From: an uncultured Pelagibacteraceae bacterium | GTDB taxonomy: Bacteria > Pseudomonadota > Alphaproteobacteria > Pelagibacterales > Pelagibacteraceae | NCBI GenBank assembly: GCA_902571425.1 | Contig: CACGBZ010000001.1 | Location: 248,001-312,000 of the forward strand | Direction: 5' to 3' | Length of the DNA stretch: 64,000 bases | Shown here: one piece after another, positions 15,203 through 33,112 of the stretch | Numbering within the stretch: the stretch's first letter is position 1 | Layout: every line of letters starts with the position of its first letter | The notes under the pieces: model-generated | The model's input: the letters and a program-made list of their open reading frames with translations, nothing else | The model's database searches: none | What the model was told of the DNA's origin: nothing | Position numbers and translations under genes: made by a program

Positions 15203-15661
15203 ATGTTTTTATCAACATACGAAAACAAATTAGACAAAAAAGGGAGAGTATCTGTGCCTGCTAGTTTCAGGTCACATTTATCCAACTTAGGTTACAATGG
15301 CGTTATTTGTTATCCATCATTTAATAACCCATCTATAGAAGCATGTTCCCAAGATAGAATTGAAAAAATTTCTTCAGCAATTGACTCCTTAAATCCCTTT
15401 GAGGAAAAAAGAGATTACTTTGCAACATCAATATTAGCAGAAAGTATAAATTTGCAATTTGATAGTGAGGGCAGAATTTCACTTTCATCAAAATTATTAA
15501 AACATGCAAAAATAAAAAATAGCATGTTGTTTGTTGGTCAAGGCCAAACATTTCAAATATGGGAGCCAACAGCATTTGAAAAATTTAAGATAGCAGCGAG
15601 GAAAAAAGCAAAGATTAATCGTGGTAATCTTAAATGGGAGCTTCAACATAACAAACAATAG
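15203..15661 (+). CDS. mraZ: Transcriptional regulator MraZ
   Basis: A 152-residue protein with two AbrB-like MraZ repeats: the first has NKLDKKGRVSVPASFR (residues ~8-23) and the second has INLQFDSEGRISLSSKLL (~89-106). MraZ assembles into a ring that binds repeated TGGG sites and represses the division and cell-wall operon in other bacteria. The phased boxes at 15149-15182, directly upstream, are its expected target. An AAAGG sits 12 nt before the chosen ATG. It is followed 10 nt later by ftsZ, not by rsmH as in most bacteria. Confidence 0.95.
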   Translation: MFLSTYENKLDKKGRVSVPASFRSHLSNLGYNGVICYPSFNNPSIEACSQDRIEKISSAIDSLNPFEEKRDYFATSILAESINLQFDSEGRISLSSKLLKHAKIKNSMLFVGQGQTFQIWEPTAFEKFKIAARKKAKINRGNLKWELQHNKQ

Positions 15662-15671
15662 GGGATAAAAG

Positions 15672-17153
15672 ATGACAATTAATTTTAAAGCACCAGAGAT
15701 AAAAGAGCTACAGCCACGACTACTAGTTTTAGGAGTTGGTGGAGCTGGCGGAAATGCAATTAACGAAATGATAGAAAATAATCTACAAGGAGTAGAATTT
15801 ATTGCAGTAAATACTGATGCTCAAGATTTAAAATTAAGTAAAGCAAAAACAAGAATTCAAATTGGTTTAAATTTAACAAAAGGTTTAGGAGCAGGAGCAA
15901 AACTTGATATTGGACAAGCTGCAGCTGATGAATCTTTAAATGAAATTGTAAATACACTTCAAGGTGCAAATATGGTTTTTATAGCAGCTGGTATGGGTGG
16001 TGGAACAGGTACTGGTGCTGCCCATGTCATTGCAAGGGCTGCGAAAGAATTAAATATATTAACTGTAGGTGTTGTGACTCTTCCATTTTTATACGAAGGC
16101 CCCTCTAGAATGAGAAGAGCACAACAAGGTTTGGAGGAATTAAGAAAACATGTTGATACAATAATTGTTATTCCAAATCAAAATTTGTTTAAAATAGCAA
16201 ATGAACAAACAACTTTTGAAGAGTCATTCAACTTATCAAACAACGTTTTGATGCATGGTGTTCAAAGTATCACTGATTTGATGGTTAGACCTGGTTTAAT
16301 TAACTTAGATTTTGCTGATGTTGAAACTGTTATGGCAGCAATGGGCAAAGCTATGATGGGAACAGGAGAAGCCGAAGGTGAAGGTAGAGCTTTAAAAGCA
16401 GCAGAGATGGCAATTAGTAATCCGTTAATAGATGATTATACTTTAAAAGGTGCAAAAGGTTTACTAGTAAACATTACTGGCGGTAAAGATCTTAAACTTT
16501 TTGAAGTTGATGAGGCTGTAAATAAAGTAAGAGCTGAGGTCGATCCAGAAGCAGAGTTAATTATTGGTGCAATTACTGATACAGAACTTGATGGAAAAAT
16601 GAGAGTTTCAATTGTTGCAACTTCTTTGGACGGCCAGCAACCTGAGTCAAAATCTGTAGTAAACATGGTCCACAGAATCCAAAATCGTAATCCAGGTTAC
16701 TCAGATTTTTCAAATATGGGGTCGTCTCAGTCATTCAATTTTTCAAACACAACAGCATCAAACCCAATTACACATGGTGCTAATGCTTTAAAACTTGAAA
16801 ATGAGATTATCCAAGAGAGACAAGCTGAAAGTTCTCATAATCAGATGATGAATGAAGAAGTTATCCAAAACACTAGCATGGAAAGTGAAAGTATAGTTGA
16901 GGATAATTCAGTTAATGAAATAGAAAGATCTTTTGCGCAAGAGGCTATGGAGACTCCACATGAAGAAATTAAGGAGACTAATAGCGAGGAAGAAGCTTCT
17001 AATGATCTAAGAGAGTTTGGAGTTGATTCTGATTCACCGGATTTATTTAGCTCAGAAGATGAGAATTCAAGTTCCGAAGATTTATTGTCCTCAAACGAAG
17101 AAGAAGAGGATGATCTAGAGATACCAGCATTCTTAAGAAGACAAAAAAATTAA
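15672..17153 (+). CDS. ftsZ: Cell division protein FtsZ
   Basis: A 493-residue tubulin-like GTPase that forms the Z ring. The GTP signature GGGTGTGA is at residues 109-116 and the T7 loop [11 protein letters not shown] follows in the C-terminal half of the core. After about residue 330 comes a long linker, very rich in Glu, Ser and Asn. The extreme C-terminus [11 protein letters not shown] is the conserved tail that binds FtsA and other ring proteins. In most alphaproteobacteria ftsZ lies between ftsA and lpxC; here it is the second gene of the cluster, between mraZ and rsmH, so its expression is probably tied to MraZ. Confidence 0.98.
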
Positions 17154-20177: not shown

Positions 20178-23021
20178 ATGCTTCTAGGAAACTACTTTCA
20201 TAACATAAATAAAAATTATAAAAATTTTTCTTTTTCAGGAATTTCATTTGACACGAAGAGTATTAAAAAAAATAATATTTTTTTTGCAATCAAAGGTAAT
20301 AGTATTGATGGTAATAAATTTATTCCTACAGCAATTAAAAAAGGATCTAAAATTATTGTAACCGAAAAAAAAACAAATCAATTCCAAAATGGAATTTTGT
20401 ATATTCATACAAATAATGTAAGAAAATTATTAGCTGAAATTGCTTTTAAAATTTATAATAAAAAACCAAAAAATTTAATTGCAGTTACTGGTACAAATGG
20501 AAAATCATCAGTTGCAGATTTTTATTATCAAATATTAAAATTAAATAATAAAAAAGGTGCTTCAATTGGCACATTAGGTGTTAAATCAAAAAATATTAAT
20601 TTAAATTTATCTAATACCACAATAGATCCAATAAAATTGGCTAAAATATTAAGCATGTTAAAAAATCGAAAAATAGAAAATGTAATTATGGAAGCCTCAA
20701 GCCATGGTTTAAAGCAAAATAGATTAGATGGTTTAAAGTTTAATTCAGGTATATTTACTAATCTATCCCAAGATCATCTTGATTATCATAAAAATTTAAA
20801 AAACTATTTAAATGCAAAACTTTATTTATTTGAAAACTTAATTTCAAAAAGAGGAAATGTAATTACAGATCAATTAATACCTGAGTTTAAAAATATAAAA
20901 AAAATTGCAATTAATAAGAAATTAAAATTACATACACTAAATGATAAGAAAAGTAATCTAACCCTTTTATCTCATAATTTTAAAGGAGAGGGTCAATTTC
21001 TTAGAATTAAATTATATGACTCAATAAGGGATATAAATTTAAATTTAATTGGAAAAATACAATTAAAAAATGTTTTGATGGTAATAATTGCAGCAAATTA
21101 TAGTGGTATTAGTCTAGATAAAATTTTAAATACGATTCCAAAGTTAAAACCAGTTGATGGAAGGTTAGAAAAAATTGGTAAAATTAAAAATCAATCAAAA
21201 GTAATTCTTGATTATGCTCATACACCCGATGCTCTAAAAACGTGTCTTATAAATCTTAGAGAACAATTTCCTAATAAAACAATCACAGTTCTATTCGGTT
21301 GTGGTGGAAATAGGGATCAAAATAAAAGATCAAAAATGGGAAAAATAGCTAGTGATTTTGCAGATAGTATAATTCTTACAAATGATAACCCTAGATTTGA
21401 AAATCCTCAAAAAATAAGAAGAGATATAAAAAAGGGAATTAAAAAAAAGAGGATTACCGAAATATCTAATAGAGCAATAGCAATAACTCAAGCTATTCTT
21501 AATTTGAATTCAGGAGAGATTTTATTAATTGCTGGAAAAGGCCATGAGAAAACACAAGATATTGGAAACAAGAAAATTTTCTTTTCAGATAGAAAGGTAA
21601 TTCTAAATGCAATTAAGAATAAAAATGATAATTTATCAGATAATCTAAAATTAAATATAGTTAAAGAAGCAGCTAAAATTAAAAAATTGTCTTCATCTAC
21701 ATCTTTAAAAATGGCAAGAATTAATTCTCGTGAAGTAAATAAAAACGATATTTTTTTTGCCATTAGAGGAAAAAAAAATGATGGTAATAAATATGTTGCG
21801 CAATCATTTAATAGAAAAGCATCGTTAGCTGTAGTAAATAAAATTCAAAATAAATTAAATAAAAATCGCCAGATTAAAGTAAAAAATACTTTAAAATTCT
21901 TAACAGATATTTCAAAAACTTTTAGAAAATGCATTGATACAAATATTATAGCTATCACTGGCAGTTGTGGCAAAACTACACTCAAAGAATTGTTGGGTAA
22001 TGTTTTAAGTAAAATTTCAAAAGTAAGTATTTCTCCAAAATCTTATAACAATAAATTTGGGGTTCCTTTAAGTCTTTTTAATTTAAAACAAAATGATGAA
22101 TTTGGAATTTTAGAAATTGGAATGGATAAAAAAGGTGAAATTGATTATTTATCAAAAATAATAAAACCAGATGTTGGTGTGATAACAAATATAAATTATG
22201 CACATGCTAAAAATTTTAAAAATATTAAACAAATTGCTTTAGCAAAATCTGAAATAATTAATAATATAAAACCTTATGGCTATATTGTATTGAATGCAGA
22301 TGACAGCTTTTTTCAATTACACAAAAAAATTGCCATAGAAAATAAAATTAAAGTAGTTTCTTTTGGAATTAAAAGTCAGAAATCAGACATTAAATTAATT
22401 AATGTAAAGCCCTCTGGAAAAAAATTTAAAATTAATATTAAATTAAATAATAAAAAAAAGTATTTTATATTGTCTAATGATTTTCAAAACAATATATATA
22501 ACACACTTTCTGCTTTAGCAGTTATTAGTATTTATAAAAATATATTTAAACTTAATGAAAATATTTTTCTCAATTTCAAAATTCCTGGGGGAAGGGGAGA
22601 CCATTCTGTAGTAAAAGTTGAAAATAAAAAAATTAATTTAATTGATCAAAGTTATAATTCAAATCCTTTATCATTAAAATCAGCAATAAAAAATTTTGAT
22701 AAAATAAATTCCAAAAAATCAAATAAATATTTATTAATTGGTGACATGTTAGAGCTTGGTAGTCATTCTAAAAAACTTCATCAATCTATTGCCCCAATAA
22801 TAAATCAAACCAAGATAGATAAGGTATTTGTAAAAGGAAAATTGGCTTCAATAATATTTGAAAATATCTCAAAAGCTAAAAAAGGTAGGATTTTATTAAA
22901 CAAATCTCAAATTATTGAATTGATTAGAAAAGATTTAAATAATAATGATTATTTAATGATTAAAGCCTCACTTGCGACAGGATTCAACGACATAGTAAAA
23001 GATTTGAAAGGATTACATTAA
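20178..23021 (+). CDS. murEF: Fused MurE-MurF ligase (UDP-MurNAc-tripeptide synthetase / D-Ala-D-Ala ligase)
   Basis: One 947-residue frame contains two complete Mur ligases. Residues ~1-485 are MurE: N-terminal ISFDTKSIKKNNIFFAIKG, P-loop GTNGKS at 105-110, EASSHGL near 173, and DNPR at 403-406, the motif that selects meso-diaminopimelate. Residues ~490-947 are MurF: NSREVNKNDIFFAIRG, P-loop GSCGKT at 595-600, and a DQSYNSNPLS segment. MurE adds diaminopimelate and MurF adds D-Ala-D-Ala. The linker is only about 20 residues and I see no internal stop or frameshift. The usual alphaproteobacterial neighbours murE and murF have merged at their usual place between ftsI and mraY. Confidence 0.95.
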   Translation: MLLGNYFHNINKNYKNFSFSGISFDTKSIKKNNIFFAIKGNSIDGNKFIPTAIKKGSKIIVTEKKTNQFQNGILYIHTNNVRKLLAEIAFKIYNKKPKNLIAVTGTNGKSSVADFYYQILKLNNKKGASIGTLGVKSKNINLNLSNTTIDPIKLAKILSMLKNRKIENVIMEASSHGLKQNRLDGLKFNSGIFTNLSQDHLDYHKNLKNYLNAKLYLFENLISKRGNVITDQLIPEFKNIKKIAINKKLKLHTLNDKKSNLTLLSHNFKGEGQFLRIKLYDSIRDINLNLIGKIQLKNVLMVIIAANYSGISLDKILNTIPKLKPVDGRLEKIGKIKNQSKVILDYAHTPDALKTCLINLREQFPNKTITVLFGCGGNRDQNKRSKMGKIASDFADSIILTNDNPRFENPQKIRRDIKKGIKKKRITEISNRAIAITQAILNLNSGEILLIAGKGHEKTQDIGNKKIFFSDRKVILNAIKNKNDNLSDNLKLNIVKEAAKIKKLSSSTSLKMARINSREVNKNDIFFAIRGKKNDGNKYVAQSFNRKASLAVVNKIQNKLNKNRQIKVKNTLKFLTDISKTFRKCIDTNIIAITGSCGKTTLKELLGNVLSKISKVSISPKSYNNKFGVPLSLFNLKQNDEFGILEIGMDKKGEIDYLSKIIKPDVGVITNINYAHAKNFKNIKQIALAKSEIINNIKPYGYIVLNADDSFFQLHKKIAIENKIKVVSFGIKSQKSDIKLINVKPSGKKFKINIKLNNKKKYFILSNDFQNNIYNTLSALAVISIYKNIFKLNENIFLNFKIPGGRGDHSVVKVENKKINLIDQSYNSNPLSLKSAIKNFDKINSKKSNKYLLIGDMLELGSHSKKLHQSIAPIINQTKIDKVFVKGKLASIIFENISKAKKGRILLNKSQIIELIRKDLNNNDYLMIKASLATGFNDIVKDLKGLH

Positions 23022-29871: not shown

Positions 29872-30786
29872 TTGAAAAAAAAAATATTAATAATATCAGG
29901 TGGGATATCGAAAGAGAGACTAATCAGTCTTGATACAGGGCAACAGGTTGCTAATGAGCTTAAAAGAAATGGTTACAGAATTAAAATCACTGAACCGGAT
30001 AATAATTTAGAAAAAAATATTAAATTTTTTAAACCAAATGTAATTTTTAATGCTCTGCATGGCCAATTTGGTGAGGATGGTTATATTCAAACTATTCTCG
30101 AGAGATTTAAAATTCCTTATACTCATTCAGGTGTAATTGCATCGTCTATTGCAATGGATAAAGAAATTTCAAAAAAAATATTTATAAAAAATAAAATAAA
30201 TACACCAAAATTTTTTACATATTCTTACGATGTTAAACATGGAGATTTAATAAAAAAAATAAAAAAAAAATTAAGATTTCCAGTAGTAGTAAAGCCTTTA
30301 AATGAGGGTTCTAGTGTTAACGTATATATTTGTAATGAAAAAAACATAATTAAAATCCTTAATTCAATAAAACAATATAAAAAAGTTATGATTGAAGAAT
30401 TTATAGGAGGAAGGGAAATACAAGTTGCAATAATGGGAAATAAAAAACTAGGAGCAATAGAACTAAAACCAAAAAGAAAATTTTATGATTACCAAGCAAA
30501 ATATAATTCCAGTGCGAAAACTGAACATATAATCCCAGTTGATTTGCCCAAAGGTAAAATGGATATAGTAATGAATATGGCATATAAAGCTCATAAAGTG
30601 ATTGGTTGTATGGGTGTAACAAGATCTGATTTTAAATTTTTTAATAATAAATTTTATCTTTTAGAAATAAACACCCAACCAGGTATGACCAAACTTTCAC
30701 TCGTACCTGAAATTGCAGCATACAGAGGTATTAGTTTTTTAGAGTTAATCGAGTGGATAATGCAAGATGCATCAAAGAAAAAGTAA
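29872..30786 (+). CDS. ddl: D-alanine--D-alanine ligase
   Basis: A 304-residue ATP-grasp enzyme that makes the D-Ala-D-Ala dipeptide used by the MurF half of the fused ligase. Motifs are LISGGISKERLISLDTGQQ near the N-terminus, NALHGQFGEDGYIQ, MDKEISKKIF, VVKPLNEGSSV, and the metal-binding EINTQPGMTKLSL. It starts with TTG at 29872, one base after the murB stop; no ATG gives the conserved N-terminus. The end overlaps ftsQ by 20 nt. Confidence 0.95.
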   Translation: MKKKILIISGGISKERLISLDTGQQVANELKRNGYRIKITEPDNNLEKNIKFFKPNVIFNALHGQFGEDGYIQTILERFKIPYTHSGVIASSIAMDKEISKKIFIKNKINTPKFFTYSYDVKHGDLIKKIKKKLRFPVVVKPLNEGSSVNVYICNEKNIIKILNSIKQYKKVMIEEFIGGREIQVAIMGNKKLGAIELKPKRKFYDYQAKYNSSAKTEHIIPVDLPKGKMDIVMNMAYKAHKVIGCMGVTRSDFKFFNNKFYLLEINTQPGMTKLSLVPEIAAYRGISFLELIEWIMQDASKKK

Positions 30787-31438
30787 AAAGTTATTAATTT
30801 ATTTTTTTTTGTTAATAATAATAAGTTCGATTAATAATATTTCATTAAAAAATTTAGAATTTCAAAAAGTTAGAAATATTGAAGTTTCAGGATTAGGTGA
30901 AATTGAAAATAAACTTATAACTGATCAAATAAAAAATCTTAACTTAAGTAATATTTTTTTTATTAATAAAGCAGAAATCAATAATTTAATAAATTCAAAT
31001 CCACTAATTGAAAAATATGAAATTTTTAAAAGTTATCCTTCAGCTATAAAAATTAGTTTTAAAAAAACAAATTTTATAGCTAGAATAAATCATAATAAAG
31101 AAATATTTGTAATTGGTTCAAATGGCAAATTAATACCAAATAATTCCCAAGCATCTGATTTACCCTATATTTTTGGAAAACCAGAGATTCAAGAATTTTT
31201 AAAATTTAAAAAAATTATAGATCAATCTAGATTTTCATTTGATGAAATCGACAGTTTATATTTTTTTCCATCTAAAAGATGGGATATTAAACTAAAAAAT
31301 AATATTTTATTAAAATTATCTAATAATTTAACCGTGGCCTCTTTAGATAATGCTTATAAATTTTTACAGGATAAAAATATTGGAAAATTTACAGCAATTG
31401 ATATTAGAATAGATAATCAAATTATATTAAATGAATGA
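30767..31438 (+). CDS. ftsQ: Cell division protein FtsQ
   Basis: A 223-residue single-pass membrane protein: a basic N-terminus (RKSKK), one hydrophobic helix (about residues 8-25), then a POTRA domain beginning near FQKVRNIEVSGLGEIENKLI (split motif, residues ~32-52) and a C-terminal beta domain. FtsQ scaffolds FtsL, FtsB and FtsWI. It is a little shorter than the E. coli protein. It overlaps ddl by 20 nt and the shortened ftsA-like gene by 8 nt, the standard gene order. Confidence 0.92.
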   Translation: MHQRKSKKLLIYFFLLIIISSINNISLKNLEFQKVRNIEVSGLGEIENKLITDQIKNLNLSNIFFINKAEINNLINSNPLIEKYEIFKSYPSAIKISFKKTNFIARINHNKEIFVIGSNGKLIPNNSQASDLPYIFGKPEIQEFLKFKKIIDQSRFSFDEIDSLYFFPSKRWDIKLKNNILLKLSNNLTVASLDNAYKFLQDKNIGKFTAIDIRIDNQIILNE

Positions 31439-32129
31439 AATTTTGGAGTTTGAAACTTATTTAAGCATTTCTCAAAATAAATTTGGAATTTATTTGTTTG
31501 ATAATAAAAATAGAAAGAACTTATATGCTAAAGAAATAACTTTTGAAAAAACAGATTTTATTAATAACTCTCATTTAAAGCAATTCCTTGATAACAATAT
31601 TTTTGAAATAGAAAAATTAGTAGGAAAATTTATTGAGAATATTTTTATTATTATCGATTTTGAAAATATTTTGAATACCCAAATAGGAATTAAACAAAAA
31701 AATTATCAACCTTCAAAAAGCAATGTTTATCTCAAAAGTTCTATAACTAACGCCAAAGATTTATTCAAAGAAAATTATCCTAATGAAAAAATAATGCATA
31801 TTATAATAAATAACTATTTTATTGACGGTAAAAACTATGATTATCTAGAAGATAATTTAGAGTATGGGCAGTTAAATTTAGTAATTCAATTTAAATCTAT
31901 ATCAAATGAAATTATACATAATTTAACTAAGTTATTACAAAATTATCAAATAAATATTATCAAGTTTATAGACGGAAATTATGTTAAGAATTTTTTTAAT
32001 AAAGACATTGAAATATCAGAAATGGCTTTTGATATTTTAAATGGTTGCAATGTCAATGAAGTCATAGTTGTTCAAAAAAATCTCAAAAAATTAGGCTTTT
32101 TTGAAAAATTTTTTCAACTTTTCAGTTAA
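31431..32129 (+). CDS. ftsA: Shortened FtsA-like protein (domain 1A/SHS2 plus C-terminal amphipathic helix)
   Basis: A 232-residue protein in the ftsA slot, just over half the normal ~410 residues. Residues ~1-80 resemble FtsA domain 1A but lack the D-x-G-T phosphate-binding motif. Residues ~75-190 align by eye with the SHS2 (1C) domain: IENIFIIIDF, then IMHIIINNYFIDGKNYDYLEDN, matching the usual ILHVIP-x-x-F-x-[IV]DG pattern, and LTKLLQNYQINI. No ATP-binding domains 2A/2B are recognisable. The C-terminus LKKLGFFEKFFQLFS looks like the membrane-targeting amphipathic helix of FtsA. FtsA links FtsZ to the membrane; this version may do so without ATP. Family call rests on position plus the SHS2 resemblance and should be tested by profile search. 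Confidence 0.7.
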   Translation: MNEILEFETYLSISQNKFGIYLFDNKNRKNLYAKEITFEKTDFINNSHLKQFLDNNIFEIEKLVGKFIENIFIIIDFENILNTQIGIKQKNYQPSKSNVYLKSSITNAKDLFKENYPNEKIMHIIINNYFIDGKNYDYLEDNLEYGQLNLVIQFKSISNEIIHNLTKLLQNYQINIIKFIDGNYVKNFFNKDIEISEMAFDILNGCNVNEVIVVQKNLKKLGFFEKFFQLFS

Positions 32130-32191
32130 TCTCGTCTTTTAATGTAATATTAGTTGTTTTTTGATTTTTAAAAAAAGACTTATGTTGGGGT

Positions 32192-33112
32192 GTGTCTTAC
32201 TTAAACCAAAAAACTATTAAACAAAAAATACATTTTTCAGGTATAGGCTTACATAGTGGCAAAAAAGTTAACTTGAGTATAGTACCTGCTAATCCTGATA
32301 GTGGAGTTATTTTTAAAAGAGTTGATTTAAAAAATAATAACATTGTTATTCCAAATTTCATGAATGTCACTAACACATCACTTAATACGACAATAGAAAA
32401 TGATTGTGGCGTTAAAGTTTCAACTATTGAGCACTTGATGGGAGCTTTATTTGGTGCTGGAATAGATAATGCTCTAATAGAAATAGATAATGAAGAAGTT
32501 CCAATACTAGATGGCTCAGCAAAAGAATTTATAAAAAAAATTTTCTCTACCGGTTTTGATATAAGTGAGTCTCCAATCAAAATTATTAAAATAAACAAAA
32601 AAGTTGAATTTAGTAATAAAGAAAAATTTATTTCAATAGAACCTTCAAAACTTAGTCTCGATATAGACTTTAGATTAAAATATCATAATGAAATAATTGG
32701 TAATCAAGAAAATAAAATAAATGTTTATGAGGATGAGTTGTTGGATATATTTAATTCTAGAACCTTTTGTTTATATGAAGATATAGAAGCTATTAAAAAA
32801 GCAGGATTAGCAAGGGGTGGAAGTTTAGATAATGCGATAGTAGTAAAAAACAATGAAGTACTTAATGCTGAAGGATTAAGAAATAAAAAAGAATTTGTTA
32901 ATCATAAAATACTCGATTGTATTGGAGATCTTTATACAACAGGATACAGAATTATTGGAAGCGTTGTTTGTTCTCAAGGTGGACATTTTTTGACCAATCA
33001 ATTATTAAGAAAAATTTTTCAAAACAAAGAAAATTTTTCTATTTTAGAGATAAAAGAAAGAAATCTTCCACACACACTAATAAACAAAAGTTTACTTAAG
33101 TCTATAGCTTAA
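32192..33112 (+). CDS. lpxC: UDP-3-O-acyl-N-acetylglucosamine deacetylase
   Basis: A 306-residue zinc deacetylase, the committed step of lipid A synthesis. The start KIHFSGIGLHSGKKVNLSI and the zinc ligands H in STIEHLMGALFG and H in the late HKILDCIGDLY motif with its Asp are present, plus the catalytic His in SQGGHFLTNQLL. It begins with GTG at 32192, preceded by a G-rich TTGGGG; the nearby ATG at 32182 is out of frame. It follows the ftsA-like gene by 62 nt; in related bacteria ftsZ would lie between them. Confidence 0.96.
   Translation: MSYLNQKTIKQKIHFSGIGLHSGKKVNLSIVPANPDSGVIFKRVDLKNNNIVIPNFMNVTNTSLNTTIENDCGVKVSTIEHLMGALFGAGIDNALIEIDNEEVPILDGSAKEFIKKIFSTGFDISESPIKIIKINKKVEFSNKEKFISIEPSKLSLDIDFRLKYHNEIIGNQENKINVYEDELLDIFNSRTFCLYEDIEAIKKAGLARGGSLDNAIVVKNNEVLNAEGLRNKKEFVNHKILDCIGDLYTTGYRIIGSVVCSQGGHFLTNQLLRKIFQNKENFSILEIKERNLPHTLINKSLLKSIA

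Follow-up and report, generated by a model that had tools for sequence, protein, structure and literature searches.

A short FtsA without the second actin lobe in SAR11-type bacteria

The canonical FtsA proteins of E. coli, V. maritimus and T. maritima share three features with the protein described here, namely the IA+IC fold, the H..D stretch of the SHS2 domain and an amphipathic C-terminal tail, and their genes likewise lie in a neighbourhood with ftsQ. Unlike this protein, however, they also possess the IIA/IIB lobe, the phosphate and adenosine motifs, the known docking domain for FtsZ and the surface for longitudinal filament contacts. We take the tail of FtsZ to dock on domain IIB, as in the T. 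maritima FtsA:FtsZ complex, an entry that recurs among our fold matches. A study by Corbin and colleagues from 2004 reportedly describes, to go by its title, how a subdomain of FtsA interacts with late septation proteins independently of the Z-ring. A fold like that of FtsA is also found in the cytoplasmic domain of GspL/EpsL, a membrane-bound scaffold of type II secretion that carries its own transmembrane segment.

For V. maritimus FtsA, the structural study places the FtsN tail in the cleft between IA and IC, and assigns lateral contacts almost wholly to IC and longitudinal contacts to IIA–IIB (Nierhaus et al. 2022, PMC7613929). The same study describes a related arrangement for the FtsA-like PilM of type IV pili, whose IA–IC cleft receives the short cytoplasmic tail of PilN (PMC7613929); unlike the short FtsA, PilM is full-size, with structures that contain bound nucleotides. 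In E. coli, it is a matter of debate whether FtsA needs ATP and filaments and which surface it cannot do without, and models are laid out in two papers (PMC7613929, PMC11323482). According to a review, strongly reduced intracellular bacteria with ftsZ retain ftsA as well (PMC10591338). Among the literature matches listed, no title or abstract opening mentions either a shortened FtsA or the FtsA of SAR11, and nothing of this sort appears in passages of PMC2877005 and PMC10906006.

The window, a stretch of 64,000 nucleotides, belongs to a SAR11-type genome (G000; 1.31 Mb in 22 contigs, completeness rating 95%), and the 80 named relatives of its short FtsA are Pelagibacteraceae, Pelagibacterales or Candidatus Pelagibacter. 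The original prediction had seen a reduced FtsA of 232 residues in the ftsA slot, and this is what the window contains: an intact ORF between ftsQ and lpxC (Table 1), so that the ftsQ–ftsA neighbourhood by which an FtsA gene can be recognised is present. The full order reads mraZ, ftsZ, rsmH, ftsL, ftsI, a murE-murF fusion, mraY, murD, ftsW, murG, murC, murB, ddl, ftsQ, short ftsA, lpxC. Here, ftsQ and lpxC are named with Pfam matches, and the other names, ftsZ included, are those that we presume from sequence and position. As far as the contigs extend, the order mraZ-ftsZ...ddl-ftsQ-slot-lpxC is common to genomes with the short and with the full form. ftsZ lies about 14 kb upstream of the short ftsA, within the same cluster and not adjoining it; it heads the cluster directly after mraZ (window 15203–17153) rather than following ftsA, and relatives with sufficient contig keep this order. 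A further peculiarity of the cluster is a single ORF of 947 codons (window 20178–23021) that resembles a murE-murF fusion, an identity that we assume from its sequence.

Table 1. Positions of the short ftsA gene, its domains and selected cluster genes in the window
Feature	Position	Strand	Remarks
FtsZ gene (ftsZ)	15672..17153	+	second gene in cluster, between mraZ and rsmH
FtsZ C-terminal tail (14 residues)	17109..17150	+	
ftsQ	30767..31438	+	3′ end overlaps short ftsA by 8 bases; PF08478, PF03799
short ftsA (FtsA without lobe II)	31431..32129	+	232 codons plus stop, ATG start
start of domain IA (beta-hairpin, third strand, helix), residues 5-64	31443..31622	+	AlphaFold2 E7-14, E17-24, E29-37, H46-64; no phosphate-1 D-x-G
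domain IC (SHS2) including IMHIIINNYFIDG, residues ~77-157	31659..31901	+	profile positions 47-189 align with E. coli FtsA 54-194
second segment of domain IA (helix, strand, helix), up to the excision point, residues 158-193	31902..32009	+	from model and alignment
last IA helix and NEV stretch, residues 194-210	32010..32060	+	E210 invariant; comes after lobe II in full-length FtsA
amphipathic tail GFFEKFFQLFS, residues 222-232	32094..32126	+	presumed membrane-targeting
lpxC	32192..33112	+	downstream neighbour of short ftsA, gap 62 bases; PF03331

Taken singly, the short FtsA of the window gives no hit to an FtsA family in either Pfam or NCBIfam, and its descent is established because its relatives supply the link, not by the protein alone. 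TIGR01174 (ftsA) matches 19 of 25 short forms at E ≤ 0.01 (best 6.3e-13) and aligns with the slot gene in the genomes mostly at model positions 45–190, while PF02491 (SHS2_FTSA) is reached at E ≤ 0.1 by 12 of the 25, the window's own protein not among them. When a profile of the 25 short forms was compared with 22 full-length FtsA sequences from the same slot using hhalign, the two aligned with a probability of 99.8 (E 3e-30) over residues 1–195 of the short profile, and a PDB sequence search with the short-form profile returned E. coli FtsA (7q6d, E 1.5e-4). The SHS2-like motif proposed for the window's protein, IMHIIINNYFIDGK, sits where the family profile aligns with VLHVIPQEYAIDYQ of E. 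coli FtsA. The 232-residue ORF descends from FtsA.

The predicted structure agrees. An AlphaFold2 model built on an alignment of 60 sequences reached a pLDDT of 85.1 and a pTM of 0.80, and FtsA chains head the lists of both fold searches, which makes the predicted structure FtsA-like: they fill ranks 1–19 in Foldseek (E 2.4e-10 to 3.8e-7, with 3wt0 included as FtsA) and make up the top 11 entries in VIA-align (Z 15.1 to 12.0), where GspL/EpsL and PilM follow. On E. coli FtsA, whose IC domain we take to span residues 84–162, the fold alignment places 200 residues within the span 6–388, a range that includes the last IA helix. The short form thus contains an IC (SHS2) domain set in an IA frame. 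The amphipathic C-terminus anticipated from the sequence is also present, as GFFEKFFQLFS, the last 11 residues, has a hydrophobic moment of 0.54, a value reached in 171 of 5000 permutations of these residues; this helix is recognised by sequence, and model confidence is low there (pLDDT under 50 for residues 216–232). Of the parts kept, the original prediction had named the SHS2 part and the membrane helix. Both are there, but more of domain I survives than SHS2: the N-terminal IA beta-hairpin, the segment that leads back into IA and the closing IA helix have been retained as well.

What the short form has lost is confined to one block. In an alignment with full-length FtsA from the genus, all 31 intact short forms in our first set lack a single segment, of 140 residues relative to the type of 368–369 residues and of 152–160 relative to the others, which begins at the phosphate-2 strand (FIDIGF...) and stops before the last helix. 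In 31 of 31 cases, exactly 39 residues follow the junction. The alignment and the fold match together indicate that the missing block is lobe II (IIA+IIB). Same-genus full-length FtsA, for example that of G026, shares the slot with the short form and aligns with its N-terminal ~190 and last ~39 residues, and differs in having lobe II with D-x-G and GxGS. A motif scan found the D-x-G phosphate-1, phosphate-2 and GxG[SA] adenosine patterns in 0 of 38 short forms each, compared with 26/26, 24/26 and 26/26, respectively, in the full forms of the same genus that served as controls. The predicted absence of D-x-G-T and of domains 2A/2B is thereby upheld. Because two defining features of FtsA, the second actin lobe IIA+IIB and the nucleotide-binding motifs, were looked for and are absent, we do not class the short form as a full FtsA.

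A different situation is seen in the sister genera g2 and g4, where the four FtsA proteins sampled are full-length (395–397 aa; L092:2762–3952, L093:16964–18148, L094:16938–18125 and L095:16977–18164). All four of these proteins are without any of the three nucleotide patterns, and four FtsA sequences from other genera of the family have all three. Judging from these patterns, ATP binding may have been lost in g2 and g4 without loss of the lobe, and the use of ATP has thus possibly been abandoned more than once in the family.

The missing lobe could in principle be encoded elsewhere. A missed frameshift at 32130–32191, raised as a concern together with the original prediction, does not exist: the short ORF is intact in 31 genomes, and the gap of 62 bases has no room for the ~150 missing codons, which a frameshift there can thus not restore. 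Nor did TIGR01174 detect a full-length FtsA elsewhere, either in G000, where it matched only MreB-like and DnaK-like frames, or in 31 further genomes with the short form (G078 included; five single-contig), with 0 of 31 over the cut-off. Its matches in the short-form genomes are frames of ~344–366 codons (MreB-like), frames of ~547–655 codons (presumably DnaK-like, given their length) and the slot gene, and nothing else. The MreB-like ORF of G000, which stands beside mreC/mreD-like ORFs (all three names being assumed from sequence), is also the only match to PF14450 in this genome. Finally, a profile of lobe II was run over 26 of the 32 short-form genomes and returned nothing at E ≤ 0.1 in 25 of them and one match of E 0.02, in a frame of 654 codons, while the positive controls were found in five of five cases (E 1e-42 to 1e-56). 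Based on these negatives, lobe II has seemingly not moved into a second gene.

Short and full forms occur side by side within the genus. Our first set comprised 49 of 51 same-genus genomes (G069 and G109 were left out, and L089–L091, which gave weak secondary matches only, were dropped) and contained 31 intact short forms (222–244 codons), 14 full-length forms (368–391 codons), one frameshifted short form and three genes cut by contig ends. Twenty further genomes picked for unusual lengths yielded 12 full forms (363–399 codons), seven short forms (232–237 codons) and one broken gene. Examples from the same slot and genus are G026 (full form, 369 aa) and G035 (short form), and the record of Candidatus Pelagibacter ubique SCGC AAA795-P11 (L126) also carries the short form. 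Regarding the two damaged genes, the frameshifted short ftsA of the single-contig genome G078 (L076:16763–17459) is divided over two frames at a homopolymer run, through either a sequencing error or decay, and the slot match of G616 (L217:1–15487) contains several stops, its longest slot ORF having 161 codons, and is possibly a broken short ftsA.

Across the genus, a mixed profile matched 275 of 399 genomes, and 150 of these matches, as listed, include 133 frames of 220–250 codons and 15 of more than 340; these counts are not to be read as a frequency because the profile favours short forms and many of the genomes are incomplete. At the level of the class, PF02491 matched 258 of 289 genomes and gave no match in 31, and the places listed include one frame below 300 codons (G432, 228 codons, with a match from contig base 195), in a scan that is nearly blind to short forms and also missed those of G000 and G003.

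The distribution can be explained in two ways: a single excision that was spread by allele exchange, or several excisions at the same site, with convergence. A tree of eight cluster proteins (54 rows) interleaves short and full forms and implies three changes, as does a mixture-model tree of 25 chosen rows, and a 70-row version implies four; of the 20 loci added for the latter, L202, L208 and L209 were excluded for having too few genes and L217 for its broken frame. For groups that were defined after inspection of the tree, AU tests on the cluster-protein tree rejected a single clade of all short forms (p-AU 0.0008) as well as two groups (0.017). In a tree of the FtsA columns common to both forms, from which L076 is absent in both versions, all short forms lie together to one side of a branch (SH-aLRT 82 for 53 rows and 87 for 72 rows), and AU tests on these columns did not reject the groups of the species tree (p 0.19 and 0.27). 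The full form L201 falls among short forms by its neighbour genes and with full forms by its own FtsA. FtsQ used singly gives three changes, just one of which is forced by starred branches. The identical junction leans towards a single excision followed by allele exchange.

How might such a protein work? We propose that lobe II (IIA+IIB) was excised from ftsA as one piece, leaving IA and IC as a closed body with the tail behind it. At the division site, the short FtsA would reside on the membrane, where it may act as a nucleotide-free adaptor through the IA–IC cleft and the IC surface. It would thus keep the surfaces for partners and for sideways pairing and give up those that serve ATP binding, filament formation and docking of the FtsZ tail. 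The functional ideas put forward with the original prediction, namely recruitment of late proteins, a rewired FtsZ tail and a stripped-down divisome, would be compatible with this anatomy. With the IIA–IIB contact surface absent, ordinary actin-like protofilaments are not to be expected, and with IIB absent, the FtsZ tail would not be held in the known way. The tail itself is conserved: its retention by FtsZ of the same cluster, part of the original prediction, was borne out in the window (Table 1), and the FtsZ tail reads EIPAFLRRQ in 29 of the 29 short-form loci where FtsZ could be read, among them that of G078. As the tail persists and IIB is gone, its probable holder is either a different protein or a new site. 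Overall, we consider it likely that the short FtsA is a nucleotide-free membrane adaptor which preserves the half of FtsA that binds partners, while FtsZ is anchored in one of these two other ways.

Several candidate partners were searched for. SepF was not found in G000 by a search that was positive in 10 of 14 control genomes, and ZapA was found. No FtsN was recognised in G000, in which PF05036 (SPOR) matches one lipoprotein-like ORF only; this result is negative for a recognisable FtsN and is no proof of its absence. The ORF in question, the sole SPOR-domain match of the genome (L184:964–1725), lies between two ORFs that we take to be MltB-like and DacA-like. Among 13 genomes searched with PF05036, nine match at E ≤ 1 and four are over the cut-off, and two of five further matches (L188 and L189) are similar lipoprotein-like ORFs. 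With the only SPOR match of G000 being lipoprotein-like, the known ligand of the IA–IC cleft may be missing, a point against the adaptor reading.

The most serious alternative is that the short FtsA has stayed the anchor of the Z-ring, gripping the FtsZ tail itself at a new site in IA or IC, and that only ATP use and polymerisation have been lost. The complete conservation of EIPAFLRRQ in the short-form loci, the retained amphipathic tail of the short FtsA and the failure to find SepF in G000 all speak for it. Yet IIB, the known docking domain, is absent, and the FtsZ tail is conserved beside full-length FtsA too (EIPAFLRRQ in 15 and EIPAFLRKQ in 4 of 19 full-form loci), which may mean that it is kept for other partners. 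FtsE and MinC are both binders of the FtsZ tail. On balance, direct tethering by the short FtsA seems rather unlikely to us.

It is far less probable that the gene is a functionless relic of a decaying ftsA. The damaged copies of G078, with its frameshift at a homopolymer run, and G616, with its stops, could be read in this way, as could the fast divergence of the gene, which retains about 50% identity between G000 and G168 where FtsZ retains 95%. However, FtsQ diverges equally fast in the same comparison (53%), and the rate of short ftsA is thus similar to that of ftsQ. Further arguments against decay are the intact ORF in 31 genomes of the first set and seven more of the second, the predominance of 220–250 codons among the genus-wide matches listed (see above), and the presence of invariant residues and of the tail, with E61, H123, G222 and F228 among the most constant positions. 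In 12 close pairs, dN/dS is 0.14–0.31, and short ftsA is under purifying selection.

Replacement of FtsA in its slot by an unrelated SHS2-like or PilM/GspL-like protein is highly improbable. GspL/EpsL (Z 10.9, 10.6 and 10.4) and PilM (Z 10.6) do come directly after FtsA in the fold list, but FtsA is first by both sequence and fold, with GspL/EpsL acting in another pathway and scoring 10.9 at best against 15.1 for FtsA, and an alignment with full-length FtsA from this slot covers the first 195 residues and resumes at the last helix and tail. A closer kinship with PilM or GspL than with FtsA is refuted as far as sequence and fold tell. Lastly, an assembly error or a split gene, with lobe II located elsewhere or lost in assembly, might be suspected in a genome of 22 contigs and 95% completeness, but it is almost inconceivable given that the short ORF and its 39 post-junction residues recur in 31 genomes, four of which are single-contig (G003, G017, G035 and G063), and that the lobe-II profile has no credible match in 26 genomes with all five controls positive.

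The short FtsA is a genuine, widespread and selected derivative of FtsA without lobe II. It represents a domain deletion made by evolution in free-living members of one of the most abundant clades in the sea, and the full-length relatives in the same genus provide a control with which the separate roles of the two lobes become directly testable. The finding also raises the question of how FtsZ is linked to the membrane when its usual docking domain is missing. There is an even chance, in our estimation, that a large part of the SAR11 clade would build its Z-ring with a half-actin FtsA that has neither ATP, nor protofilaments, nor the known hold on the FtsZ tail; the essential job of FtsA in these bacteria would then be recruitment or activation through IA–IC alone, the tail having passed to another anchor. 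The existence of the short form suggests that bacterial division can proceed without the second lobe of FtsA.
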